Shown here: positions 125-29,707 of the stretch, piece by piece | Layout: the number at the start of each line of letters is the position of its first letter | Position numbering within the stretch: position 1 is the stretch's first letter | Source: a virus | Reading direction: 5' to 3' (one strand) | Virus record (IMG/VR): IMGVR_UViG_3300027659_000151 | Span: 1-29,770 of that record | Length of the DNA stretch: 29,770 nucleotides | Program-made: the position numbers and the translations under genes | Notes under the pieces: generated by a model | What the model was told of the DNA's origin: nothing | The model's database searches: none | The model's input: the letters and a program-made list of their open reading frames with translations, nothing else

Positions 125-541
125 TTAGCCTGCTTTTGCGGTGTTTTCTGCGGAGATCTGACGATCTAGCTCGCGACGCATGGCCTCCGGTCTTTCGGCC
201 TTTGCTCGAGCTCTGAGCGTCTGATCGTCGCACTCCATACGCTTGAAACTAGCCCCGAGCCTGCGATAGATCGCGACGTCCTTCTCTGCCGGGTAGGCGT
301 GGATGATCCAGACGTCGAACGACCCGCGGCGATGAAGGCGGGCCGCCTCGTCGATCGCATGCCATCGAGCAGCGCGGGCGATGTCTCGGACATGCTGCGG
401 GTAGTCGTGATGCTCCGTCCCCTCTGCGGCCAGGGCGAGCGCGAGCCTGTCCATGTCGACGACGACATCGGACGCGGCCGCATGCTGGCGGACATACCAG
501 CTCTTGCCGCTGCAGATGTGGCCGGTCACGACATGGATCAA
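125..541 (-). CDS. P-loop ATP-binding (kinase-like) protein
   Basis: A 138-aa protein with an N-terminal beta strand followed by a Walker A loop at residues 7-14 (GHICSGKS), as in small P-loop kinases and AAA_33-type ATPases. An acidic VVVDMDRLA stretch near residue 27 fits the next strand, and a WIIHAYP strand near residue 78 fits the core fold. The substrate cannot be told; polynucleotide or nucleotide kinase-like activity is possible. Its ATG overlaps the stop of the HNH gene by 4 nt, so the two are translationally coupled. With HNH and, across the window ends, the terminase genes, it may serve DNA end processing or packaging, which is inference. It is the last leftward gene before the left end. 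Confidence 0.75.
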   Translation of the reverse strand: MIHVVTGHICSGKSWYVRQHAAASDVVVDMDRLALALAAEGTEHHDYPQHVRDIARAARWHAIDEAARLHRRGSFDVWIIHAYPAEKDVAIYRRLGASFKRMECDDQTLRARAKAERPEAMRRELDRQISAENTAKAG

Positions 542-831
542 AGGACGCCCCTCCGTCGCTGCTCGCCCCTCGTCTTCCGGCCATGATCAGACAGGCAGAG
601 CGTCTGTAGGTTCTCCAGGGCGTCCGTCCCGCCCTCCTCGAGCGGGACTATATGATCGACCTGGGCGTCGGCCCCGGCCAGGACGCGGCGGCATACGCGG
701 CATGTGTAGGCGTCGCGGACGAGGACGGCCCGGCGGCGGGTCTTCCACTCCGCGGAGACGTAGTGGGCTCGCTCTTTGGTTTGGTGACGCTTCAGCCGTG
801 GAGGGCGGAAGGCCTTGATCGCGTCGGGCAT
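538..831 (-). CDS. HNH endonuclease
   Basis: A 97-aa protein with the complete HNH layout. A zinc-binding CRVC pair is at residues 44-47, VDHIVPL follows with H60, N74 lies in ENLQTLC, and C79 and H83 lie in the final SDHGRKT segment. HNH proteins of this size next to the small terminase are needed for specific cos cleavage in HK97-like phages (established for that group). Here it lies at the left end and the small terminase at the right end, so a packaging role implies that the window ends are joined. A GAGG lies only two or three bases before the ATG, so the ribosome site is not ideal. A free-standing homing nuclease is the alternative, but the order fits packaging better. Confidence 0.88.
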   Translation of the reverse strand: MPDAIKAFRPPRLKRHQTKERAHYVSAEWKTRRRAVLVRDAYTCRVCRRVLAGADAQVDHIVPLEEGGTDALENLQTLCLSDHGRKTRGEQRRRGVL

Positions 832-9384: not shown

Positions 9385-10296
9385 ATGTACAAACGATCCG
9401 GCCCGGCGACTCTTGGGGCCTACGTCTCCCAATACGCTCTTTATCACGACATCCGGCCGGAGACGCTCCGGCAGTATGAGATCTCCGTAGCCCTGTTCGA
9501 GCGCTGGGCCGGTGGGCCGGTCCCACTCGAGCAGCTCGACGCTGCGAGCGTCTCCTCCTGGCTGCGGGACTACCAGGCGAGCGGCCGCGCCCCGAACACG
9601 GTCCGCTCGAAACGGAACCATGTCGTGATCATGTGGCGGGCCGCCTCCGACGACGGGCTCTGCGATCTGCCGGCGAGGCGTGTCCGCCCCGTCCGCTGCC
9701 CGTGGATCCCGCCGGTCGCCTGGACCCGCGAGGAGGTCGAGCAGCTGCTCGCCGCCTGCTCGAAGCTGAAGCGCTGGCATACCTCCGGGATCCGCCGGTC
9801 GGAATGGTGGGCGCTGGCGATCCGGGTCGCCTGGGACGCGGGCCTCCGCTGGGAGGATCAAGTCGCCCGCCTCCGGATCGATCAGGTGAGGCCAGACGGG
9901 ACGATCGCCTTCGGTCAGTCGAAGACGGGCCGCGTCGTCGTCCCCCAGTTGTCCGCAGCCACGCTCGAGGCCCTGGCAGCCTCCCTGGCGGGCGGTCGCC
10001 GGGAATTGGTAACGCCCTGGGACTGCAGCCACGAGACCTTTACGCGGCAATTCCGGAGGCTGGTAGCCCTGGCCGGCATCCGGGCCGGAAGCTGGAAGTT
10101 TATAAGGCGCTCGAGCGCGACCGACTGCGAGGTCCAGAGGGAGGGCTCGGCGACTGAACATCTCGGACATCGGCCGGGATCGCCGATCGCCAGGATCTCC
10201 TACATCGATCCGGCAATCGTCGCCGGCAGTAGGAGCCGCGTTGTCCCTCGTTCGCTTCACGCCCCCCCCCCCCCCCCGGGGGGGTCTTTCGGATAG
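9385..10296 (+). CDS. int: Tyrosine recombinase (phage integrase)
   Basis: A 303-aa protein and the only plus-strand gene. A SAM-like N-terminal core-binding domain (about residues 8-90: TLGAYVSQYALYHDI, LRQYEISVALFERW, NTVRSKRNHVV) is followed by the catalytic domain. Active residues visible are R155 in GLRWED, K180 in FGQSKTG, R241 in KFIRRSSATD (where K238 replaces the usual His of HxxR), H262 in LGH and Y273 in ISYID. The substitution is one of the accepted variants in this family. It should recombine the attP tRNA half with a host tRNA-Arg gene. The last ~12 residues are coded by a 16-C/7-G tract, so slippage would alter only the tail after the catalytic Tyr. The ribosome site is weak. 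Confidence 0.93.
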   Translation: MYKRSGPATLGAYVSQYALYHDIRPETLRQYEISVALFERWAGGPVPLEQLDAASVSSWLRDYQASGRAPNTVRSKRNHVVIMWRAASDDGLCDLPARRVRPVRCPWIPPVAWTREEVEQLLAACSKLKRWHTSGIRRSEWWALAIRVAWDAGLRWEDQVARLRIDQVRPDGTIAFGQSKTGRVVVPQLSAATLEALAASLAGGRRELVTPWDCSHETFTRQFRRLVALAGIRAGSWKFIRRSSATDCEVQREGSATEHLGHRPGSPIARISYIDPAIVAGSRSRVVPRSLHAPPPPPGGSFG

Positions 10297-10317: not shown

Positions 10318-10761
10318 CTAGGCTTCGCATTCCGCGAGGCAGGAGGCGTAGCCCGCCAAGTCGATCGGCGTATCGGCAGATTTTGCCGGGCCGCGGTGGC
10401 GGGCGAGCTTGTCGATAATCATGATCTGCGCCCAGTCCGCCTCCGTCAGCGGCTCTTTCAGTTTGTCGGCTAGCAGCCCGTTCAACATCTGGACAGTTCT
10501 CGCGAAGTGTTCGCGAGGCGGGCCGTATGTTTCCCTGCGGCTGCGGACAACGTCGAGGGCCTCGACGAGCATCTTCTCGGCCGGGGTCTCGGCGGTTTGC
10601 ATAAATGCCATCCCTTGCTCCTGGAGAGTCCGAACCATGCGGACGAGGTGAACGACGAACAAGGCTAACCGGCCAGACGTTCCCGTCCATGCTCCAGAAA
10701 AAACACGCGCCCGCTGCTCGGCCTCGACGAGCTCCTCGTCGGTGAGCCAGTGAATGTTCAC
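10318..10761 (-). CDS. DUF6378-like phage protein
   Basis: A 147-aa protein that starts with GTG inside a GTGA overlap with the stop of the metallophosphoesterase gene; no ATG is available at a better place. The C-terminal part resembles DUF6378: a helix MLVEALDVVRSRRETYGPPR, then EHFARTVQMLNGLLADKL and ADWAQIMIIDKLARHRG. This is a phage family with a compact helical, nucleotide-pyrophosphohydrolase-like look. The N-terminus has a second helical block (TDEELVEAEQRARVF). Function unknown, perhaps nucleotide handling. It is coupled to the metallophosphoesterase and is the last gene of the main late operon. Confidence 0.7.
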   Translation of the reverse strand: MNIHWLTDEELVEAEQRARVFSGAWTGTSGRLALFVVHLVRMVRTLQEQGMAFMQTAETPAEKMLVEALDVVRSRRETYGPPREHFARTVQMLNGLLADKLKEPLTEADWAQIMIIDKLARHRGPAKSADTPIDLAGYASCLAECEA

Positions 10762-11768
10762 GACGTCCGGACCGTTCCGTCTGAACTGATCCGCATATTC
10801 TCGACGCCGAACTCGCCGCCCTTGGAGATGTCGACCGTCGCGAACCCCCAGTTCCAACGGTTCACGCGGGCATACTCTGGATTCATGTCGCACAAGCAGC
10901 CCTGCGACCAGCAGAAAACCTCCTCGTGCCACAGGTTGCTCTCGGCGTGGCCGCTGGTGCGGTGGCCGTGGCCGACGAGGATCGTCGAGAGCGTCCGCAG
11001 GAAGGCCCCGCGGGCCATGTTGACGGGATTCGTCAGCCCCTTGGGTAGCTCGTGACCGTGGAGGATCGGCAGGCGGCCGGCCATGATCGGCCGCTGGTCC
11101 TCGACGAGGTCGATGTCGAGCTCGTCCAGTTTGAACCAGTTACGGAGGCCCATCTCCGGCTCGTCCGAGATCTCCGGGGCATGTTGCCAGAGCCAATGAA
11201 TCCAGCGCTCCTCGTGATTCCCTAACTTGGCGACGATCGGGATCTTCGGGAATTCCTGCCGCAGCCAGCGGAGCAGCTGCCGCACCTGTCCGACCTCGCC
11301 CTTAAAGTTGCGCTGGCTGGGATCCTTGACCCATCGAGAGATCGCGTAGAAGTCGGCGAAGTCACCATTGAGCAGGAGGGCCGCCGGCTTGCGCCGCTTT
11401 AGGTACGCGACCGCGGCAGAGAGAGCGACATCGGAATGGTATGGAACATGGATGTCAGACAACACGCCGACGAGCCCCTCGACCTCGAGCTCGTAAGGCG
11501 TCCAGGGCTTCGCCTGGGAGGCGGGCATCTCGACGCCCTGGCCTGGGGCGCGGGCCGGGCGGGCCGCGAACCTGGAGCCGGGAGTGCTCTTGGCTATCGC
11601 CCCCTGCTGTCCCATCAGGTAGCGGATCCGACTGCGGGCTGATTCGACCGTGATCGCCCCGTTGGCCTTGTCGACCAGCTTCTTTGCGAGGCTCCGGGCC
11701 GGGGCGTCCGGGTAGCGCCGGACAATCGACCGGGCCATCTTCGCGATCTCGTCGAGGGGGGGCGGCAT
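10758..11768 (-). CDS. Calcineurin-like metallophosphoesterase
   Basis: A 336-aa protein with all metal-binding motifs of the family in order: SDIH (D105, H107), NGDFAD (D136), GNHEER (N184, H185), HGHE (H237, H239) and GHGHRTSG (H267, H269). The first ~90 residues are an extra helical and Pro/Ala-rich part (MARSIVRRYPDAPARSLAKK), possibly DNA-binding. The substrate is not evident; phage enzymes of this type can be nucleases or phosphatases acting on nucleic acid ends or nucleotides. A GGAGG lies six bases before the ATG. It is placed at the end of the tail genes, an unusual place if it works in replication. Confidence 0.88.
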   Translation of the reverse strand: MPPPLDEIAKMARSIVRRYPDAPARSLAKKLVDKANGAITVESARSRIRYLMGQQGAIAKSTPGSRFAARPARAPGQGVEMPASQAKPWTPYELEVEGLVGVLSDIHVPYHSDVALSAAVAYLKRRKPAALLLNGDFADFYAISRWVKDPSQRNFKGEVGQVRQLLRWLRQEFPKIPIVAKLGNHEERWIHWLWQHAPEISDEPEMGLRNWFKLDELDIDLVEDQRPIMAGRLPILHGHELPKGLTNPVNMARGAFLRTLSTILVGHGHRTSGHAESNLWHEEVFCWSQGCLCDMNPEYARVNRWNWGFATVDISKGGEFGVENMRISSDGTVRTS

Positions 11769-18601: not shown

Positions 18602-18964
18602 CTACACCGCAGGAATCGAGACGAACGTGGCCGTACCCTTGACGAGCTCGCCGACCGCGTACTCGATTTCCGACTCGGTGCACTTGAACTGCCCGCCCGC
18701 GTAGGTGATCGTCGAGCCGGCCTCCGGCGCTTCGGACGACAGGAACGAGCAGGTGATCGTTGACGTAACGCCGTCGACAGCGCCCGAACCAGAGTCCGGC
18801 AGGCCGGCGACATAGACGCGGTCCGAGCCGGCCGCGAGGTCGAGCGTCGAGGCGTCGAGCTTGTTCGACGAGCTGGTCGGGTCGACGCCGACCTTCTTGA
18901 CCTTTACGTTTGTGAGGCCGGACGGAAGGCCCGTAAACGTGGTTCCCTGCGCTGGTGTTGCCAT
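18602..18964 (-). CDS. Tail-tube-like protein, second paralogue
   Basis: A 120-aa protein with LTNVKVKKVGVDPTSSSNKL, DRVYVAGLPDSGSGAVDGV and the end IEYAVGELVKGTATFV. It aligns over most of its length with the next upstream gene (18977-19333). Both have TNVKVK, SSSSNK/SSSNK and the YAVG..KGTATxV end. The conserved end strand is the tube-tube contact in this family. Tandem copies might form a tube, a terminator or a decoration. Confidence 0.68.
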   Translation of the reverse strand: MATPAQGTTFTGLPSGLTNVKVKKVGVDPTSSSNKLDASTLDLAAGSDRVYVAGLPDSGSGAVDGVTSTITCSFLSSEAPEAGSTITYAGGQFKCTESEIEYAVGELVKGTATFVSIPAV

Positions 18965-18976
18965 GCCTCTAGTTCC

Positions 18977-19333
18977 TTACGGTGCCGCTGGTGGTTCTTT
19001 GTAGACGTAGGTTGCCGTTCCTTTGATCATGTCGCCGACCGCGTACTCCGTCTCGACCTCCGAGCAGATCCAGCCGGTCGCGTCCGGGTCGTCGTTGACT
19101 TCCGGAGCCTCGCCAAAGAATGAGGCAGTAACGGTCTCCGTAATGCCGTCCGTTGCGCCAGCCCCGACGTCGACGAGCGGCGCGTCCTGGTAGACGCGGG
19201 CCGCGTCTGAGAGCGTGGTAACGTCGACCTTATTCGAGCTGCTCGAAGGGTCGGCGGCCGAGCTCTTGACCTTTACGTTTGTGCAGCCGGCCGGGAGGTC
19301 TGGGCCGGGCGACGGCATTCCTGAGAGCGGCAT
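18977..19333 (-). CDS. Tail-tube-like protein, first paralogue
   Basis: A 118-aa protein with CTNVKVKSSAADPSSSSNKV, DGITETVTASFFGEAP and the end TEYAVGDMIKGTATYV. It is the closest relative of the second paralogue. A Cys (GWICSEVE) is present where the second has KCTESEIE. It follows the tail terminator gene by only 3 nt. Role uncertain among tube, neck and tail-decoration protein. Confidence 0.65.
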   Translation of the reverse strand: MPLSGMPSPGPDLPAGCTNVKVKSSAADPSSSSNKVDVTTLSDAARVYQDAPLVDVGAGATDGITETVTASFFGEAPEVNDDPDATGWICSEVETEYAVGDMIKGTATYVYKEPPAAP

Positions 19334-21409: not shown

Positions 21410-22642
21410 TCAGTCGTCGACGACGAGCTTCGCCACGAAGCTGGCGTCGTGGTTGGCGATGCCCACTCGCTGGGTCCCGCGGAAGAGGACGCCGTCCTTC
21501 GCAAAGGCGGCATGCTCCGACGCTGCGACCTGGAGGCCGTTAGCCTTGTAGGCCACGGCGGTTGACATCGAGAAGTCACCGTAGACAGCCAGCGTCCCGG
21601 CCGGGAGGCCGAGGCACTTGTAGACCGGGCTGCCCATCACAACCGGGAGAACCCGGTCGCCGATCGTCGTCGACTGGGTCACGACTGAGGCCTTCATGAT
21701 GTGAGCCCAGCCGGCCGAGCTGACGACCCAGGCGGTGTTCATCGCCCGGGCGTCGACCTTGCCGACCAGCTCCGCGAGATCCACTGCGTCGTTGTCGACG
21801 CCCTGGGTCACGGTGTTGCCGGCGGCGATCTCGGAGACGAGACCGTCGATTCCCTTGCCAACGTCGCCCTGCAGCCAGACCGTGTCGATCTTCTTCGCGA
21901 TCGCGAGGCCGAAGCGATTCGCCACGGTCTGCGCGAGGTTCACGACTGCGGCCGAGTCGTTCACCAGCTCGTTAGAGATCTCGATCGTCCGGCCCATCTT
22001 GTGGAGCAGAATCTCGACCTTGTCGGTCGTCATCTCGTCGCCCGTGATGGTGTCGAGCTCGTCGAACCATTCGGCCTCGATCTCGCCGATCTTCGGGACG
22101 ACGATCGAATTCGAGCTCGTCTGGTAGCCGCTGGCGACCTGGAGGCCGACGGAGGCGTAGCCCAGGACGTCAATGAATCCGGCGTACAGTTCCGAGCTCA
22201 CCAGCTCCGAACCCTTGGCGTCGAAGTCGGGGCTCGATTGACCCATCGACCGATGTTCGCCGCGGGCGAGAGCCTGCAGGAACCGGCCCGCGTTGGCGGC
22301 AGCGTCCACGCTGCCGAAGCCGCGGAGGTTGTGCTGCTTGCCCGGCATCACATGGATCGCCGGCCCCTTACGCTTCTCGGCCTTCTCGACGTCCGTCCGG
22401 CTGTCGGTCGAGCTGGCGACCGCAGAGCGGAGGCTTTCGACTGCTGCAGCCTGGCGGGCCTCGAGCTCGTGCTGCTTCTTCAGCTCGACGGCGAGCTCTT
22501 CGGCGCGGGCGGTCGCCTGCAGGGTGTTGCCCTCGATTGTCCGCGCTTCAGCCTCATCGGCCGGAACCAAAAGGTTCAGGGAATCGAGCTCGGCCGTCAC
22601 CTTTGCGGCCTCGTCCTGCAGCTTGCGGCGAGCGATAGACAT
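21410..22642 (-). CDS. Major capsid protein, HK97 fold
   Basis: A 410-aa protein. Residues 1 to about 95 (RKLQDEAAKVTAELDSLNLL, LKKQHELEARQAAAVESLRS) are a coiled-coil delta domain that acts as scaffold and is cut off by the prohead protease. The rest is the HK97 shell domain: VSSELYAGFIDVLGYASVGL, NELVNDSAAVVNLAQTVANR, AKKIDTVWLQGD (E-loop and spine helix parts), IMKASVVTQSTTIGDRVLPV and the end HAAFAKDGVLFRGTQRVGIA. A GAGG lies eight bases before the ATG. The protease lies six genes upstream, separated by the unusual cassette. Confidence 0.93.
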   Translation of the reverse strand: MSIARRKLQDEAAKVTAELDSLNLLVPADEAEARTIEGNTLQATARAEELAVELKKQHELEARQAAAVESLRSAVASSTDSRTDVEKAEKRKGPAIHVMPGKQHNLRGFGSVDAAANAGRFLQALARGEHRSMGQSSPDFDAKGSELVSSELYAGFIDVLGYASVGLQVASGYQTSSNSIVVPKIGEIEAEWFDELDTITGDEMTTDKVEILLHKMGRTIEISNELVNDSAAVVNLAQTVANRFGLAIAKKIDTVWLQGDVGKGIDGLVSEIAAGNTVTQGVDNDAVDLAELVGKVDARAMNTAWVVSSAGWAHIMKASVVTQSTTIGDRVLPVVMGSPVYKCLGLPAGTLAVYGDFSMSTAVAYKANGLQVAASEHAAFAKDGVLFRGTQRVGIANHDASFVAKLVVDD

Positions 22643-23024: not shown

Positions 23025-23287
23025 TACCAGCCCTTTCCATGATCGACCACTTGATAGCCGTCGTCTCCGACCGGCGGAGCATGGACGAGATGCCGATCCG
23101 CCTGGGCCGCCGGGGGCTGCTCGGCGACCAGGGCGATCCAGAGCAGCGACTTCGCGGCCCGGGCGATCCAGCGGAGGACCGGCCGCTCCGGGGCCGGTGG
23201 GCCGGGCGGGCTCGAGGAGCCAGAGAACCAGTAGCCGACCGCGAATGCGGCGACCAAAACGTAGAGCGTCTTTCGGTCGAAAGTCAT
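23024..23287 (-). CDS. Small membrane protein next to the papain-like peptidase
   Basis: An 87-aa protein starting MTFDRKTLYVLVAAFAVGYW. One N-terminal membrane helix (about residues 7-19), a Pro-rich link (SSSPPGPPAPERP) and a second hydrophobic stretch (IARAAKSLLWIALVAEQ). The end is polar (DDGYQVVDHGKGW). Its ATG overlaps the peptidase stop by 4 nt (ATGA). A holin- or anchor-like partner of the peptidase is possible. Longer frames upstream are not used. Confidence 0.6.
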   Translation of the reverse strand: MTFDRKTLYVLVAAFAVGYWFSGSSSPPGPPAPERPVLRWIARAAKSLLWIALVAEQPPAAQADRHLVHAPPVGDDGYQVVDHGKGW

Positions 23288-24411
23288 CGGTCCTGCTCCT
23301 TCATCGTCAACGTCTCCACGGGGGGCGGGGCAAACCAATTGCCGTTATGTAGGTCGCGCCACTTGAAGCCTGTCTCCACTGATCCAATCGCGTAGGAGTC
23401 GCCCTGGGCGAGGATCCGCTCCGCGTCCGATCTCGAGATCCAGAAGGAGCCGTCCGGCTGGTCCGGTGGGAATTTCCCACCCGCGACGTAGTTGCCCCAG
23501 CTGTTGAGGACCAGCGCCCCGTCCCGCGGGCGTGACGTCCCCGGCGGGGCATTCTTGGCAAACCTCGTCGAGAGGATGCTCATCTGGTGCATCCATGTAC
23601 CAGAGGCGGCGCAGAATCCGTCGGCGTCGCGCGGGCCGCTGTTGAATCCCACCGAGCTGGCGATCGTCACCGGGAAACCGGAGCCGATCGCGGCGACCAG
23701 CTCCTCCCAGGTGCGGACCGCGACCACATGCCGGCAGGGGTGACGCTTGGCGACCTTGTCGAGCCGGCCCGCGTCGCCCTGCCCGCCGTTGCCGTAGGCC
23801 CCGTAGGCCTTCGCCCGGTCGGCAGAGTAGGTCGTGAGGTCGACCGTTTCGTATTGCTGGCGATAGACGACGCCCCAATCGCGGAGCCACTTCGCCGCGC
23901 CCCAGCCGGTCGCGCCGTCGCTCCATCCGCCGACGGGCGAGGTCCCGTCTCCGGACTTGCCGCGGCTCTCTACGCGGGCTCCGCCGTAGATGCTTTCAGT
24001 CGCCGGCATGAGCGGAGGCTCGGCCGCCTGCCCCAGTTCCCACGAGACGCTTTCCGCACAATAGACGGCATGAGCAGCGCCCCAGGCAATACAGTCGCCG
24101 ATCCCCTGCCGGCCGACGACGAACGGCTTTCCGTATCTCGCCCGGTGGGCCTTGTCCATCGAGCGGAAAAGGAACGTATCGACCTCGACGCTTTTCCGCA
24201 TGGCCTCGGCCCCGGCGTCGCGGAAGAGCGGCTGCGGCAGTTCCGCCAGGAAGTCGGCCACGCCCTGCGGGTCTGGCTGGTAGCCGAACCGTTCCCCGAC
24301 CACTTGGGTAGCGGCGGGGCGGGTGAACCACTCGAGCGCAAGAAGGAACGCGACGCCCAGGAGCAGGGCGGCAGCGACGATCCTCGCCGGGTGCCGGTCA
24401 GCGTGAAGCAT
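23284..24411 (-). CDS. Membrane-anchored papain-like (C1A-type) cysteine peptidase
   Basis: A 375-aa protein. Residues 9-28 (ARIVAAALLLGVAFLLALEW) are a signal anchor. The catalytic set is visible: Q102 and C107 in GRQGIGDCIAWG, a GWSDGATGWGAAKWLRDWGV region like the papain GCxGG...Gi part, H275 in GTWMHQMSI and N303 in LVLNSWGNYV, then GSFWISRSDAERIL. NSWG is the classic papain-family signature. The Q-to-C spacing is one shorter than in papain. The target is unknown: cell wall, a membrane protein or a virion protein. Start at 24411 is favoured; the longer frame begins with GTG at 24435. It sits between the prohead protease and the capsid with small membrane proteins on both sides. Confidence 0.8.
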   Translation of the reverse strand: MLHADRHPARIVAAALLLGVAFLLALEWFTRPAATQVVGERFGYQPDPQGVADFLAELPQPLFRDAGAEAMRKSVEVDTFLFRSMDKAHRARYGKPFVVGRQGIGDCIAWGAAHAVYCAESVSWELGQAAEPPLMPATESIYGGARVESRGKSGDGTSPVGGWSDGATGWGAAKWLRDWGVVYRQQYETVDLTTYSADRAKAYGAYGNGGQGDAGRLDKVAKRHPCRHVVAVRTWEELVAAIGSGFPVTIASSVGFNSGPRDADGFCAASGTWMHQMSILSTRFAKNAPPGTSRPRDGALVLNSWGNYVAGGKFPPDQPDGSFWISRSDAERILAQGDSYAIGSVETGFKWRDLHNGNWFAPPPVETLTMKEQDR

Positions 24412-25311: not shown

Positions 25312-25469
25312 TTTCCCCTCCTCCAGATTTGTTCCGCCGGGACGAACCGCCGCTCCCGCGCACTGCAGCTAATGCAGGCGAGGTACTGAAGCTGCTCCCG
25401 GCCGACGGATCGCGACGAGGCGACCCGCATCCGGGCGGAGCAGCGCTTGCACTTAGGGGCGGAGACCAT
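25308..25469 (-). CDS. Small zinc-ribbon protein, 53 aa
   Basis: Starts MVSAPKCKRCSARMRVASSR and has CKRC (C7, C10) and CISC (C32, C35), a typical zinc-ribbon spacing with about 21 residues between the pairs. The end is basic (PAEQIWRRGK). Its ATG lies inside the end of the protease gene in another frame (17-nt overlap), and its stop overlaps the next ATG as ATGA. Both edges therefore fit the operon and the gene is likely real. Short Cys4 proteins like this often bind nucleic acid or a partner protein. Confidence 0.72.
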   Translation of the reverse strand: MVSAPKCKRCSARMRVASSRSVGREQLQYLACISCSARERRFVPAEQIWRRGK

Positions 25470-26133
25470 TCGCGTAGATCCTCAGTCGTGCCGCGGCCGC
25501 TGCCGCCTGGACTTTCGGCGAGACGGCGGCGATACGCTTCTCGGCCGCCTGCTCCTGGACGTCGCGGATCTCGGTCGCGCTCAGGTTCTCTTGACGCCAC
25601 TTGTCGAGAGACCGGACGGCTACGCTCGTGGCGCTGCCGTAGGCGGCATGCGTGACTACGGAGACGTCATAGAGCCCAGAGAATTCGGTGATCGTCCGCG
25701 TGGTGTTGCCCTTGTCGTCCTGCTCCCACTTCTCGCCTTTTGCCGGATCCACGGTGAACGCGAAGGAACTTCCGAAAAGGTCACGACGACGGATCAGGGT
25801 AAGGACGTCCCGGCCGAGTTGGGTATCCGGCGGGTCGACCTCGTATCCGAGGCCGCGGTCGTCGGTCGACAGCCGCAGCGTCCCGGCCGAGGTCCGGCCG
25901 AGCGGCTGGCCTTCATGGTCGAAGAAGGCGACGACGTCGAGCTTCCGCTTCGAGAGGACGCGGTCGAAGGCCCCCGGCTGAATGATCTCCCGGAACCCTC
26001 CGAGGTCGAGCGAGAACTTCGAGTAGGCGGCGGCGAGGCCGCGGATCTTCGGAGTCTCCGCCTCCCGCTCCTCGACGACCAGGCCGTCGGCGACATCGTC
26101 GGCGATCGCCAGGAATCTACGCTCCAGATCCAT
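25453..26133 (-). CDS. HK97-family prohead protease
   Basis: A 226-aa protein. IRGLAAAYSKFS and FREIIQPGAFDRVL open the fold. The catalytic His is H73 in VAFFDHEGQPLGRT and the Ser is about S123 in LFGSSFAFTV. LYDVSVVTHAAYGSATSVAV is the conserved closing strand. The enzyme cuts the N-terminal delta domain of the capsid protein in the prohead and then itself. A GGAGG lies five bases before the ATG, which overlaps the portal end by 17 nt. The C-terminal ~50 residues form a charged helix, probably a capsid-docking part removed on maturation. Confidence 0.93.
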   Translation of the reverse strand: MDLERRFLAIADDVADGLVVEEREAETPKIRGLAAAYSKFSLDLGGFREIIQPGAFDRVLSKRKLDVVAFFDHEGQPLGRTSAGTLRLSTDDRGLGYEVDPPDTQLGRDVLTLIRRRDLFGSSFAFTVDPAKGEKWEQDDKGNTTRTITEFSGLYDVSVVTHAAYGSATSVAVRSLDKWRQENLSATEIRDVQEQAAEKRIAAVSPKVQAAAAAARLRIYANGLRP

Positions 26134-27655
26134 CGGTGCCTCCTTGCGGTTGCTGCGGCAGTTCCTTTGCCCCGTCTGCTATCTGCTTTGCCAGGGCCTC
26201 GGAGATCGTCGGGAATGCGGAGGTGATAATCGCGACCGCCGCCGTCGGGTCGATCGCCCCGGCGGAGATCTGGGCGAGCACATCGAGCAGGGCCGTAACC
26301 TGCGCGCCGTTCAATGCAGTCGAGGCCAGTCCGGCTGCGGAGTCGGCGGCGGGCGTCAGCGGATCGGCCGGGGCCGCGTCGGCTGCCGGCTCGTCGGCCG
26401 GGGCGTCCGCCGGAATGTCGTTCGCGCCCAGCGGCGCGAAACCGAGCTGCATGTAGGTTTTGTTCGCGGCCTCGTCGTCGAGGATCTCGAGGTCTTCGAG
26501 GGCGCGGATCTCGTTGGGCTTGATCGAGCCCATGTTGAAGAGGCTCTGATACAGGGCGGCGCGGGCTGCCGTGTCGCCCCGCAGGAGTCCGCGGTTGTCG
26601 AGCTTGCAGTAGACCTCGTCTCCGTAGGTCGACAGGATCGAGCGGTCGATCGCCCCCTCCATCCGGCGCTGCCAGGGCAGGAGGGTAAATACCTGGGCCG
26701 ATAGGAATTCCTGCTCGACGTTGGAATACTTCGCCATTGCCGCATCGCCGATCAGTGTCGACGGGATGCCGAACGCGCGGGCGATCTCGCCCACGATCGA
26801 CTGCCGCAGCTCCATAAACTGGGCCGCCTCCCGGCTGGATCCCTCGAGGACGCGGGCCGTGGTCTTCTTCGGAAGGATCGCGGTCTGCCCCTTATTGCGG
26901 ACCCCGCCGTACATCTCGCGCCACTGCTGCCGCAGCTGGGCGACCGCCGCGTCGGGGATCGCCTCCGTCGTCTCGAGCACTACGTCCGGCCGGGCCGAGT
27001 TGTCCCAGTAGGCGGCGGCCGCGATGTCGAGCTTCCGGGCCAGCGTGACGGCCGTCCCGCAGAGCTCGGCCGGAACGAGCCCTGAGTAGCCGTTATCGGA
27101 CAGCCAGCGGAAATGCAGGATCTCCGACTGCTGGAAGGTGCGAGTCCCGTCCGGACCCCAGTAGTCATACACGAGCGACACTGGCCGGCCGTCTCGGTCT
27201 GAGAGTAGCCGCTCCTTCATCCTCGACGGATGGATCGGGATAAGTTGGGTTGCGAAGCCGCGCTCCCCGGGGAGGATCCTCGAATAGCCGGAACCCCACA
27301 GGGCCGTATGGTGGGCCATCTGCTCCAGCCATTCGTATTGCGACTGCCAGAAGTTGGGGCTCTTGGAGAGCGTCTTGTGGACGCCGAGATCCCGGGCTTC
27401 CTGCCGGCGGCCGTTGCCCATGTTCCGCATTATGTGGATCGGGCAGCTCGCGAGACTCTGGGCGATGAACCGGACGCATGCCAGGATCGCCGTTACCCGG
27501 ATCGCCGTCTGGGCAGAGATCGCGTCCGGCGATTCGACGAGCCAGCTCCCGCCGAGATCCACCGAGCGCATGGCGTAGGTGTTTTGGGCGGCGGCCTTGC
27601 GGGGCCTGGGCGTCGATCGCGTCGGGCGTTTGGTGGCGGACGGCTTGCGGGTCAT
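26117..27655 (-). CDS. Portal protein, HK97 family
   Basis: A 512-aa protein starting MTRKPSATKRPTRSTPRPRK (basic). Typical portal parts follow: AIRVTAILACVRFIAQSLAS, EWLEQMAHHTALWGSGYSRI, RKLDIAAAAYWDNSARPDVV, REAAQFMELRQSIVGEIARA, ILSTYGDEVYCKLDNRGLLR. The end is Ala/Pro/Asp-rich with a last helix (AVAIITSAFPTISEALAKQI). It forms the 12-mer ring for DNA entry. Its ATG overlaps the terminase stop (ATGA). A longer frame to 27805 runs antisense-like and is rejected. Confidence 0.93.
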   Translation of the reverse strand: MTRKPSATKRPTRSTPRPRKAAAQNTYAMRSVDLGGSWLVESPDAISAQTAIRVTAILACVRFIAQSLASCPIHIMRNMGNGRRQEARDLGVHKTLSKSPNFWQSQYEWLEQMAHHTALWGSGYSRILPGERGFATQLIPIHPSRMKERLLSDRDGRPVSLVYDYWGPDGTRTFQQSEILHFRWLSDNGYSGLVPAELCGTAVTLARKLDIAAAAYWDNSARPDVVLETTEAIPDAAVAQLRQQWREMYGGVRNKGQTAILPKKTTARVLEGSSREAAQFMELRQSIVGEIARAFGIPSTLIGDAAMAKYSNVEQEFLSAQVFTLLPWQRRMEGAIDRSILSTYGDEVYCKLDNRGLLRGDTAARAALYQSLFNMGSIKPNEIRALEDLEILDDEAANKTYMQLGFAPLGANDIPADAPADEPAADAAPADPLTPAADSAAGLASTALNGAQVTALLDVLAQISAGAIDPTAAVAIITSAFPTISEALAKQIADGAKELPQQPQGGTDGSGA

Positions 27656-29289
27656 ATCTTGATTAGGTTCCAGTTGTCCGCGCCGGTCTCGTCTGATGTG
27701 CTCGCCAGGACTAGGCCGTTCACGAGGGCGACGATCGGGTCGATCTTCTCTGAGCTCTTCACCTTGTCCGGCTTGATTGACCCGGTCGAATCGCTGTAGA
27801 CGCAAACATGATTAGCGGCCCAGGCTGCCACGGGGTCTCCGCCCGTCCGGAGCTTCCCTTCGACGACCAGCGCCTCGAGCAGCTTCGACGCCGAATTCAG
27901 AGTCCCTGTTTTCTGAGAGATAGACTGGACTTCGAGATCGTGCCGCTGAAGTAGGGTCGCGAGGGAGCCCACGTTCCACGGGTCAGCGCCCACGCTTACG
28001 ATCCGGTGCCGCTCGGAAAACTCCACGATGTCGCGGGCGACCGCCTCATGGTCGAGGCGAGCCCCGTCGGTGACGGTGACGTAGCCTTGCTTGATCCATT
28101 GGGAGTATGGGATCCCTTCCCGCTCGCGGTCGGGGATCGTCGCCTCCGGGACCCAATACTTCCACTGCGCGAAGTAGGTCCCGTCGCGCTCCTTAAAGAC
28201 GAACGCGGCGGCCGTCATGTCGAGGTTGCTCGCCAAGTCGATGCCGACCCAGCAGGGCCGGCCCTCCGTCGGCTCGAGCGGCCCGGCATCGCAGGCGGCC
28301 CACTGGCCGGGATCTTTGAACCAGCGGTTGTCTCCCTGGACCCAGACGCCGAGCCGGTAGCGGGCGAACGCTGCCCACTTCCGCGGATTGGTGAGACTAT
28401 CGGCGTAGTCGCTCGCGAAGTCCTTCTCTGAGATCGTGGTCCCGAGCGACGGATTCGCCTGCCGCCAGACGTTGGGATCGGAGTAGTCGCTGCCCTCCCG
28501 GGCCTCGTAGACGCGGCCGAAAAATGTCGGGTTAGCCTCCGGCGTTTTCTCCACGAGCTTCGCGTCTTGATACCACTGCCAGCCAATGCCGTTCCGGTTC
28601 TCGCCGGCCGTCGAGATCGCGACGACCAGCGGCGAGGCTCGCGCCGCCCCGGCGTAGGTGAGGGCCTGAACGAGGTCCGGCTTTCGGTGGGCGTGCAGCT
28701 CGTCGACGACGACGGCCGAGGCGTCGATACCTTCCGCCCGCCAGGAGTCGGCGGCGAGGCATGTATAGCGCGAGTTGGTTTCCCTGTGGACGATCGTGCT
28801 CCGCGAGTCGATCACCTCGAGGGCCTTCGACAGCTGCGGGTTAGCGCGGACCGCCGAGGCTACAGAGCGGTATATGATGCCCGCCTGGATACGATCGACC
28901 GCGGCCCCGTAGACGGCGGCCCCCGGCTCCTGGTCGGCGAGCATGTGATAGAGAACCAGGGCAGCCATCATGCTGCTCTTCCCGTTCTTTTTAGAAACGT
29001 AGATGGCCGCCCGCCGGTAGCGGCGCAGTCCGTCGGAGTCGACCCAGCCATAGAGCGGCTCGAGGATCTCCTTCTTCTGCCACTCCATGAGCTTCATCGG
29101 CTTCCCGGCGAACTTGCGTCCCGAGGTCATGGTGACGAACGACTCGACGAACCGGATCACGCGGTCGGCCCGCTCCTGCTCGAAGGTGTAGCCGGCGACA
29201 TACTCCGGCCGCCGTTTCCAGGCTGGGCCGGCCGCCCGCTTACGCGGTGCCTTCGATGAAGGCGCGGAGGTCGTCTTTCGTTTCGCCAT
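27652..29289 (-). CDS. terL: Terminase large subunit (HK97-like)
   Basis: A 545-aa protein. Walker A at residues 99-106 (SKKNGKSS), Walker B at 192-198 (AVVVDEL, D196 and E197), coupling motif AISTAGEN (about 224-231). The C-terminal nuclease has D351 in GIDLASNLDM and a late acid in EKIDPIVALVNGL. It is the motor that cuts and packages DNA. It overlaps the small subunit by 50 nt and the portal by 4 nt. The N-terminus is basic (MAKRKTTSAPSSKAPRKRAA). Confidence 0.95.
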   Translation of the reverse strand: MAKRKTTSAPSSKAPRKRAAGPAWKRRPEYVAGYTFEQERADRVIRFVESFVTMTSGRKFAGKPMKLMEWQKKEILEPLYGWVDSDGLRRYRRAAIYVSKKNGKSSMMAALVLYHMLADQEPGAAVYGAAVDRIQAGIIYRSVASAVRANPQLSKALEVIDSRSTIVHRETNSRYTCLAADSWRAEGIDASAVVVDELHAHRKPDLVQALTYAGAARASPLVVAISTAGENRNGIGWQWYQDAKLVEKTPEANPTFFGRVYEAREGSDYSDPNVWRQANPSLGTTISEKDFASDYADSLTNPRKWAAFARYRLGVWVQGDNRWFKDPGQWAACDAGPLEPTEGRPCWVGIDLASNLDMTAAAFVFKERDGTYFAQWKYWVPEATIPDREREGIPYSQWIKQGYVTVTDGARLDHEAVARDIVEFSERHRIVSVGADPWNVGSLATLLQRHDLEVQSISQKTGTLNSASKLLEALVVEGKLRTGGDPVAAWAANHVCVYSDSTGSIKPDKVKSSEKIDPIVALVNGLVLASTSDETGADNWNLIKI

Positions 29290-29707
29290 GCTCGACGCGG
29301 ATCGCGGTCCTCGAGGAAGGGGTCAATCCAAACTCCCGCTCTATCTGCAGGAGGTCGGCGTGGTATCGGCTGACGAGATTTGCCTCCGGCAGTTGGACGC
29401 GGCGGCCGCTGCCGATCTCCGCGGACAGGCCGTTAGCCTTCAGCTCGGCGTAGGCCAGGATGTAGAGCTCCCAGGCAATGCAGTAGCGCTGCAGCGTCAC
29501 GCGGTCGGCATCGGTGAAGACCTTCATCGCCGCCAGCTGCGGGGCGCGAAGCGTCCACATCTCGAGGGCGTTGCCGTCGAGCATCGGCGGCGCGGCGAGC
29601 GATGCCTCGCCCGGCTTCGGCTCGAGCGCGGCGAGCGCCGCGAGATTTTCCTTCCGAGGATTGCCCCGCAGGATTTTCAACGCGGTCGGCTGCGGCTTGC
29701 GTCCCAT
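29240..29707 (-). CDS. terS: Terminase small subunit, P27 family
   Basis: A 155-aa protein. MGRKPQPTALKILRGNPRKE and FGLTPSSRTAIRVEHGETKD are the hallmark ends of P27/Terminase_4 proteins. The middle is helical (LQRYCIAWELYILAYAELKA, LPEANLVSRYHADLLQIERE). It recognises the packaging site and loads the large subunit. An AAAGG lies eight bases before the ATG. It is the first gene from the right end. In cos phages with an HNH protein, that HNH gene is next to this one; here it is at the other window end. Confidence 0.92.
   Translation of the reverse strand: MGRKPQPTALKILRGNPRKENLAALAALEPKPGEASLAAPPMLDGNALEMWTLRAPQLAAMKVFTDADRVTLQRYCIAWELYILAYAELKANGLSAEIGSGRRVQLPEANLVSRYHADLLQIEREFGLTPSSRTAIRVEHGETKDDLRAFIEGTA

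Follow-up and report, generated by a model that had tools for sequence, protein, structure and literature searches.

The locus described here raises the question of what a papain-like cysteine peptidase does among the head genes of a phage. The window, by which we mean the whole stretch of DNA that was analysed, comprises the 29,770 bases of one IMG/VR virus record (IMGVR_UViG_3300027659_000151). Its minus-strand order is terS, terL, portal, prohead protease, g25311, g24940, the peptidase (PEP), g23287, g23024, capsid and tail genes (Table 1). The original prediction, made from the sequence alone, had placed a membrane-anchored peptidase with papain signature residues between the prohead protease and capsid genes, and had offered three roles for it: a new type of lysin, a host-envelope protease or an internal virion protein. 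The placement is borne out by the Peptidase_S78 gene on one side of the locus and the HK97-type capsid gene on the other.

Several other features of the window bear on the nature of the phage itself. An HNH endonuclease gene lies near one end of the record and terS at the other; since HNH genes often stand directly before terS in other phages, the record could represent an almost complete genome in permuted form. A tyrosine-recombinase-like ORF on the strand opposite to the head genes has a Phage_int_SAM_1 match just under the cut-off (E 7e-4), suggesting a possibly temperate phage. A gene for a calcineurin-like phosphoesterase (Metallophos, E 2.5e-7) lies downstream of the tail genes, and two adjacent genes spanning 18602-19333, both carrying GLTNVKVK/GCTNVKVK...SSSNK, look like tandem tail-protein paralogues.

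Table 1. Coordinates of the features discussed. Positions are those of the window, except for the alternative cassette loci, which are given with their locus labels.
Feature	Position	Strand	Remarks
terS	29240-29707	-	
terL	27652-29289	-	
Portal	26117-27655	-	
Prohead protease (Peptidase_S78)	25453-26133	-	Upstream border of the cassette
g25311, 123 aa	24940-25311	-	C-terminal hydrophobic segment; constant gene in both cassette types
g24940, 180 aa	24398-24940	-	N-terminal hydrophobic segment(s) and conserved helical domain
PEP, predicted membrane-anchored C1A-like cysteine peptidase, 375 aa	23284-24411	-	Assigned from residues, AF2, Foldseek and hhalign
g23287, 87 aa	23024-23287	-	N-terminal membrane segment; conserved C-terminal ...HG(K/R)GW
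g23024, 98 aa	22728-23024	-	N-terminal hydrophobic stretch; Cys-rich CxxCxGxG...HGDGH..PCPC...CKC tail
HK97-type major capsid protein	21410-22642	-	Downstream border of the cassette
Tail-protein paralogue (putative)	18977-19333		
Tail-protein paralogue (putative)	18602-18964		
Calcineurin-like phosphoesterase	10758-11768		
Tyrosine-recombinase-like ORF	9385-10296	+	
HNH endonuclease	538-831		
Alternative cassette loci	L377:6473-7345; L407:11354-13004; L412:6890-8536; L424:11089-12789		NQxPTHECTCH...GHAVPW...YPDSY

The peptidase and its family

The bounds of the PEP ORF are exact (ATG at 24411, stop at 23284), and its translation contains Q102, C107, H275 and N303, the last within NSWG, in the order of C1A peptidases as had been predicted. 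These residues hold across the family: in an alignment of 83 representatives, one for each cluster of full-length sequences at 80% identity, the residues Q102, G105, C107, H275, N303, S304 and W305 are invariant (83/83). The glycine-rich GW..G segment that had been noted is likewise conserved, as GGWSDG..GWG at residues 161-171, and aligns with the NGGY stretch of papain. There are two subfamilies, one with Q(x5)C (NQGSAGTC, NQG(N/P/S)HGSC), which is the spacing of papain, versus one with Q(x4)C (RQGIGDC), the window type, in which the distance between Gln and Cys is one residue shorter; both lack the Cys that papain has three residues before the catalytic Cys. Pairwise dN/dS ranges from about 0.03 to 0.37, which indicates purifying selection; together with the invariant residues and the papain-like fold, this sets the signature well apart from a chance occurrence. 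Planctomycetota genomes also contain homologues that are more divergent and retain Gln, Cys and His, with Asn or sometimes Gln as the third residue; three of them (L299, L300 and L301) have Gln at this position (AQSWG, LQSWG) and are without an evident N-terminal membrane helix. Asn, Gln, Asp and Glu are all allowed as the third catalytic residue (PMC10318531).

The claimed signal anchor corresponds to a hydrophobic helix at residues 8-30 (hydropathy maximum about 2.4), which is also helical in the AF2 model (pLDDT about 91-95). An N-terminal hydrophobic segment is present in 74 of the 83 representatives, with a mean net charge of +1.2 on its N-terminal side and -0.1 on its C-terminal side. 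Because the positive charge lies on the N-terminal side of the helix, in the positive-inside pattern, PEP is predicted to be exported, with its catalytic domain in the periplasm. Many members of the family (L132-L135, L142-L170) end in ...ALAL, ...LAL or ...LGL; the window protein does not.

An AF2 run on the 83-sequence alignment, which replaced an earlier run on five close sequences (pLDDT 40, discarded), gave a model with pLDDT 91.7 and pTM 0.86 that consists of a transmembrane helix and a peptidase; no wall-binding domain was seen in it. Foldseek comparison of this model to the PDB returned 198 matches at E<=1e-3, and the 50 matches listed are all C1A enzymes (xylellain, cathepsins, papain), the best being xylellain at 8e-12. 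A fold unrelated to papain, which would have counted against the original prediction, did not emerge: the modelled fold is papain-like. Weak profile matches of the family to the PDB are mainly to C1A as well, and a comparison by hhalign with Planctomycetota PF00112 proteins reached a probability of 96.2% (E 2.5e-9), all four catalytic residues being in register. We also considered NlpC/P60, which like CHAP comprises peptidoglycan hydrolases of the clan CA thiol type common in phages, and rejected it on an hhalign value of 0.2% against a two-member NlpC/P60 profile and the absence of a Pfam match; the choice of C1A over NlpC/P60 in the original prediction stands. One point needs correcting: C1A-type domains are not without precedent in phages. 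In BFVD, the matches of the PEP model are C1 peptidases of uncultured Caudovirales and of giant viruses, with phage lysins matching more weakly; they include proteins named 'Peptidase C1A' from uncultured Caudovirales and a mycobacteriophage Lysin A (phage Indlulamithi).

Searches of Pfam, PHROG, NCBIfam and the PDB with the single PEP sequence returned nothing significant. PF00112 matched neither the window PEP, nor any of the 83 representatives, nor anything else in the window record; CHAP had no Pfam match among the representatives, and PF13529 (Peptidase_C39_2) reached a best E of 0.007 in only 2 of the 83. As no Pfam, NCBIfam or PHROG model is significant despite the match in fold and profile, we call PEP C1A-like rather than C1A; the model and the profile comparisons indicate a new family that borders on PF00112 without being part of it. 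With the papain family (MEROPS C1) it shares the fold, the Gln-Cys-His-Asn order, the NSWG around Asn, the glycine loop and the profile similarity, whereas it differs in lacking a PF00112 match and the extra Cys, in the shorter Gln-Cys distance of the window subfamily, in additional insertions, and in its membrane anchor and phage cassette setting.

A cassette that moves and is exchanged

Examination of the genes around PEP, restricted to loci with enough flanking DNA, showed that its neighbours are nearly constant. A homologue of g24940 adjoins PEP in every locus with room (231/231) and one of g25311 stands alongside in 213 of these 231, while on the other side g23287 is next to PEP in about 192 of 196 loci and g23024 is nearby in 187 of 196. 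Most homologues of g25311, g24940 and g23287 have a hydrophobic segment. The unit is a five-gene cassette of mostly membrane proteins, not PEP alone; the original observation of the peptidase was right, but the unit to which it belongs is larger than had been noted and is exchangeable.

None of the cassette genes matches a known holin or spanin in Pfam or PHROG. For g25311 there is no significant match of any kind in these two collections; it is a possible holin or membrane partner. The g24940 protein takes a lipoprotein-like form in a divergent prophage (L310), and the g23287 homologue of Blastopirellula marina likewise has GW at its C-terminus. In L311 a Cys motif similar to that of g23024 is fused to a thioredoxin domain, L310 has a similar layout without a Pfam thioredoxin match, and in B. 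marina (L135) the cassette is followed by a separate, secreted protein that resembles thioredoxin. A thioredoxin-like partner was found only in divergent cassettes (L135, L311 and L320), the window having the Cys motif alone. The possibility that the g23024 family is always a thioredoxin was rejected, since a thioredoxin-type active site is absent, as judged by motif, from all 242 matches of this family, 106 of which have CxxCxGxG.

A place between the protease and capsid genes is a trait of the group of phages to which the window belongs, but not of the cassette as such. In window-type phages the capsid gene lies within 1 kb downstream (59 loci), and among close portal relatives of the window the cassette is found in all whose contig reaches the site. 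Elsewhere it stands upstream of the terminase, with terL downstream in about 17 cases and also in B. marina and other prophages, and in one locus (L118) it is near the end of the tail region, ahead of an integrase. The same cassette moves between genome positions.

A wider scan of portal relatives gave 37 loci with PEP, 38 that end too early to tell, and 5 that lack PEP but include the capsid gene. All five retain g25311 together with the head genes on either side, and have a putative papain-like protein. Four of them were read gene by gene; each encodes a protein of 290 aa bearing the motifs NQxPTHEC, GHAVPW and YPDSY, and in three (L407, L412 and L424) the next gene, seen in full, encodes a secreted protein with a CxxC motif (CxxCxG) and a Trypsin_2 match (E 1e-19 to 1e-23). 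Comparison of the 290-aa protein to C1A with hhalign, based on only four near-identical sequences, gave 0.4%. Its N-Q-x5-C motif aligns, however, and Planctomycetota homologues (L433 and L434) with QTLGSC...GHA...NSWG provide intermediates, for which reasons we regard it, putatively, as a second peptidase of the papain type in which Asp is the third residue. PEP and the alternative cassette never occur together (0 of 287 PEP loci, 0 of 83 alternative loci), g25311 is common to both types (248/287 and 73/83, respectively), and 76 of the 83 alternative loci have a trypsin-like match. Taken together, these patterns suggest that the slot needs an exported protease and not PEP in particular.

Distribution and probable hosts

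Relatives of PEP number in the hundreds in IMG/VR, with at least 588 in one scan of viral contigs. A tblastn search of 50,697 INPHARED phage records found no match to the window PEP, the B. marina homologue, a divergent homologue or the alternative enzyme. A scan of genome contigs with a narrow PEP alignment found no relatives; a second scan, which covered 84,980 species genomes, turned up five. One of these is in a prophage of B. marina DSM 3645, directly upstream of terminase; the others are in a Planctomycetaceae MAG, a Planctomycetota MAG, one further MAG, and one MAG labelled Alphaproteobacteria. In the last case (L136) the gene is on a 6.2 kb contig, which is possibly a misbinned phage. 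Among 392 Planctomycetota genomes sampled, 13 have PEP relatives. The phages that carry PEP probably infect Planctomycetota, and we infer a host of this phylum for the window phage itself.

A proposed role in lysis and its rivals

Of the three roles originally offered, a lysin acting as an envelope protease fits best and an internal virion protein fits least. In our judgement the chances are about even that PEP serves Planctomycetota phages as the effector of a late, exchangeable lysis cassette, with a protein layer as the favoured substrate of its predicted activity. PEP would be made late, together with the structural genes, and its N-terminal helix would place it in the inner membrane, the catalytic domain lying in the periplasm. 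As infection ends it would cut peptide bonds in the envelope, and the cell would open. g25311 and the other small membrane proteins may control timing or disrupt membranes, and the Cys-rich or thioredoxin-like partner could either keep the catalytic Cys reduced or reduce disulfides in the substrate. The favoured substrate would be the protein layer of the planctomycete envelope, which is rich in Cys and stabilised by disulfides, the main alternative being the stem or cross-link peptides of peptidoglycan. Published descriptions have the SDS-resistant envelope of planctomycetes made of proline- and cysteine-rich protein that contains disulfide bonds (PMC3035269, PMC2754498), and Cys-rich YTV proteins are found in planctomycete wall preparations (PMC8567305).

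The likeness to lambda-type holin/endolysin/spanin cassettes is in the overall design: small membrane proteins with one enzyme, on the late strand, subject to modular replacement and, in some phages, near the terminase. Unlike those cassettes, the PEP cassette has no holin, peptidoglycan hydrolase or spanin recognisable in Pfam or PHROG, its enzyme is a protease, and its partners include Cys-rich or thioredoxin-like exported proteins. No Pfam family of peptidoglycan hydrolases or endolysins was found elsewhere in the window. Amidase_2, Phage_lysozyme and M23 had no match in any of 36 large PEP records (0/36), a count to be read beside that of the control portal family PF04860, which was found in only 10 of the 36. 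These three were the endolysin families searched, and unassigned tail proteins remain in the PEP records. The place of PEP inside the head operon of the window is unusual for lysis genes.

A rather doubtful alternative keeps the cassette and its role in lysis, and makes PEP an endopeptidase-type endolysin that acts on the stem or cross-link peptides of peptidoglycan. Planctomycete sacculi of peptidoglycan exist, contain DAP and are sensitive to lysozyme (PMC4432640), so that a peptidoglycan peptidase is also chemically possible; however, most genes for peptidoglycan synthesis are dispensable in P. limnophila (PMC10632474). There are precedents among phages for a thiol peptidase in this role. 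The N5 domain of mycobacteriophage Lysin A (PMC3314691) is a papain-like catalytic domain with presumed wall cleavage, as is proposed for PEP, and Lysin A of phage Indlulamithi is among the BFVD matches. Phage endolysins with papain-family domains are mostly multi-domain proteins (an amidase or muramidase plus a wall-binding part), whereas PEP is modelled as a single anchored peptidase domain; that no wall-binding domain is seen in the model counts against this alternative. PeiW and PeiP (family C71) are phage Cys peptidases that lyse the unusual, pseudomurein envelope of their hosts (PMC2989375, PMC4592898), and they have a Cys-His-Asp set like the one that we propose for the enzyme of the alternative cassette, but they belong to another family, act on archaea, carry pseudomurein-binding repeats, and have no membrane anchor or redox partner described. 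The secreted trypsin-like protease of the alternative cassette, which has a protein-cutting fold, also argues against peptidoglycan as the substrate.

It is unlikely that PEP works without lysis, as an envelope-remodelling or superinfection-exclusion protease that shaves receptors or other proteins from the host surface during infection or lysogeny. An exported protease with Cys-rich or thioredoxin-like partners would suit such a task, PEP occurs in prophages and in possibly temperate phages (as the integrase-like gene of the window suggests), and chronic, non-lytic release of phage has been reported for a planctomycete (PMC10945688). Yet PEP is on the strand of the late head genes and embedded among them, and in the portal-related group PEP or its replacement is near-obligatory wherever the contig reaches the site, which is more the behaviour of a core than of an accessory gene; moreover, the replacement preserves proteases. 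That PEP is a virion component, either an internal or ejected peptidase aiding DNA entry or an enzyme of head maturation, is very improbable, as its position between the prohead protease and capsid genes of the window is outweighed by the N-terminal membrane anchor of most members, the membrane-associated proteins of which the cassette is made, the occurrence of the same cassette away from head genes in other phages, and the prohead protease that is already encoded.

At minimum, these results describe a new C1A-like peptidase family, as judged from fold and profile, and a marker cassette by which Planctomycetota phages can be recognised in metagenomes. The general understanding is that phages lyse Gram-negative-type cells by hydrolysing peptidoglycan. 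In the present case, uncultured phages of a very common family seem to have a protease where the endolysin would be expected, and to exchange it only for other proteases. It is possible, and we suggest it tentatively, that Planctomycetota phages lyse their hosts by proteolysis and not by an endolysin that hydrolyses peptidoglycan, with an anchored papain-like protease (or one joined by a trypsin-like protease) and an exported thiol-disulfide partner dissolving a protein wall stabilised by disulfides. If true, this would be a distinct strategy of lysis and would provide functional evidence that protein bears load in planctomycete cells, giving a molecular handle on the long dispute over whether protein or peptidoglycan holds these cells together.
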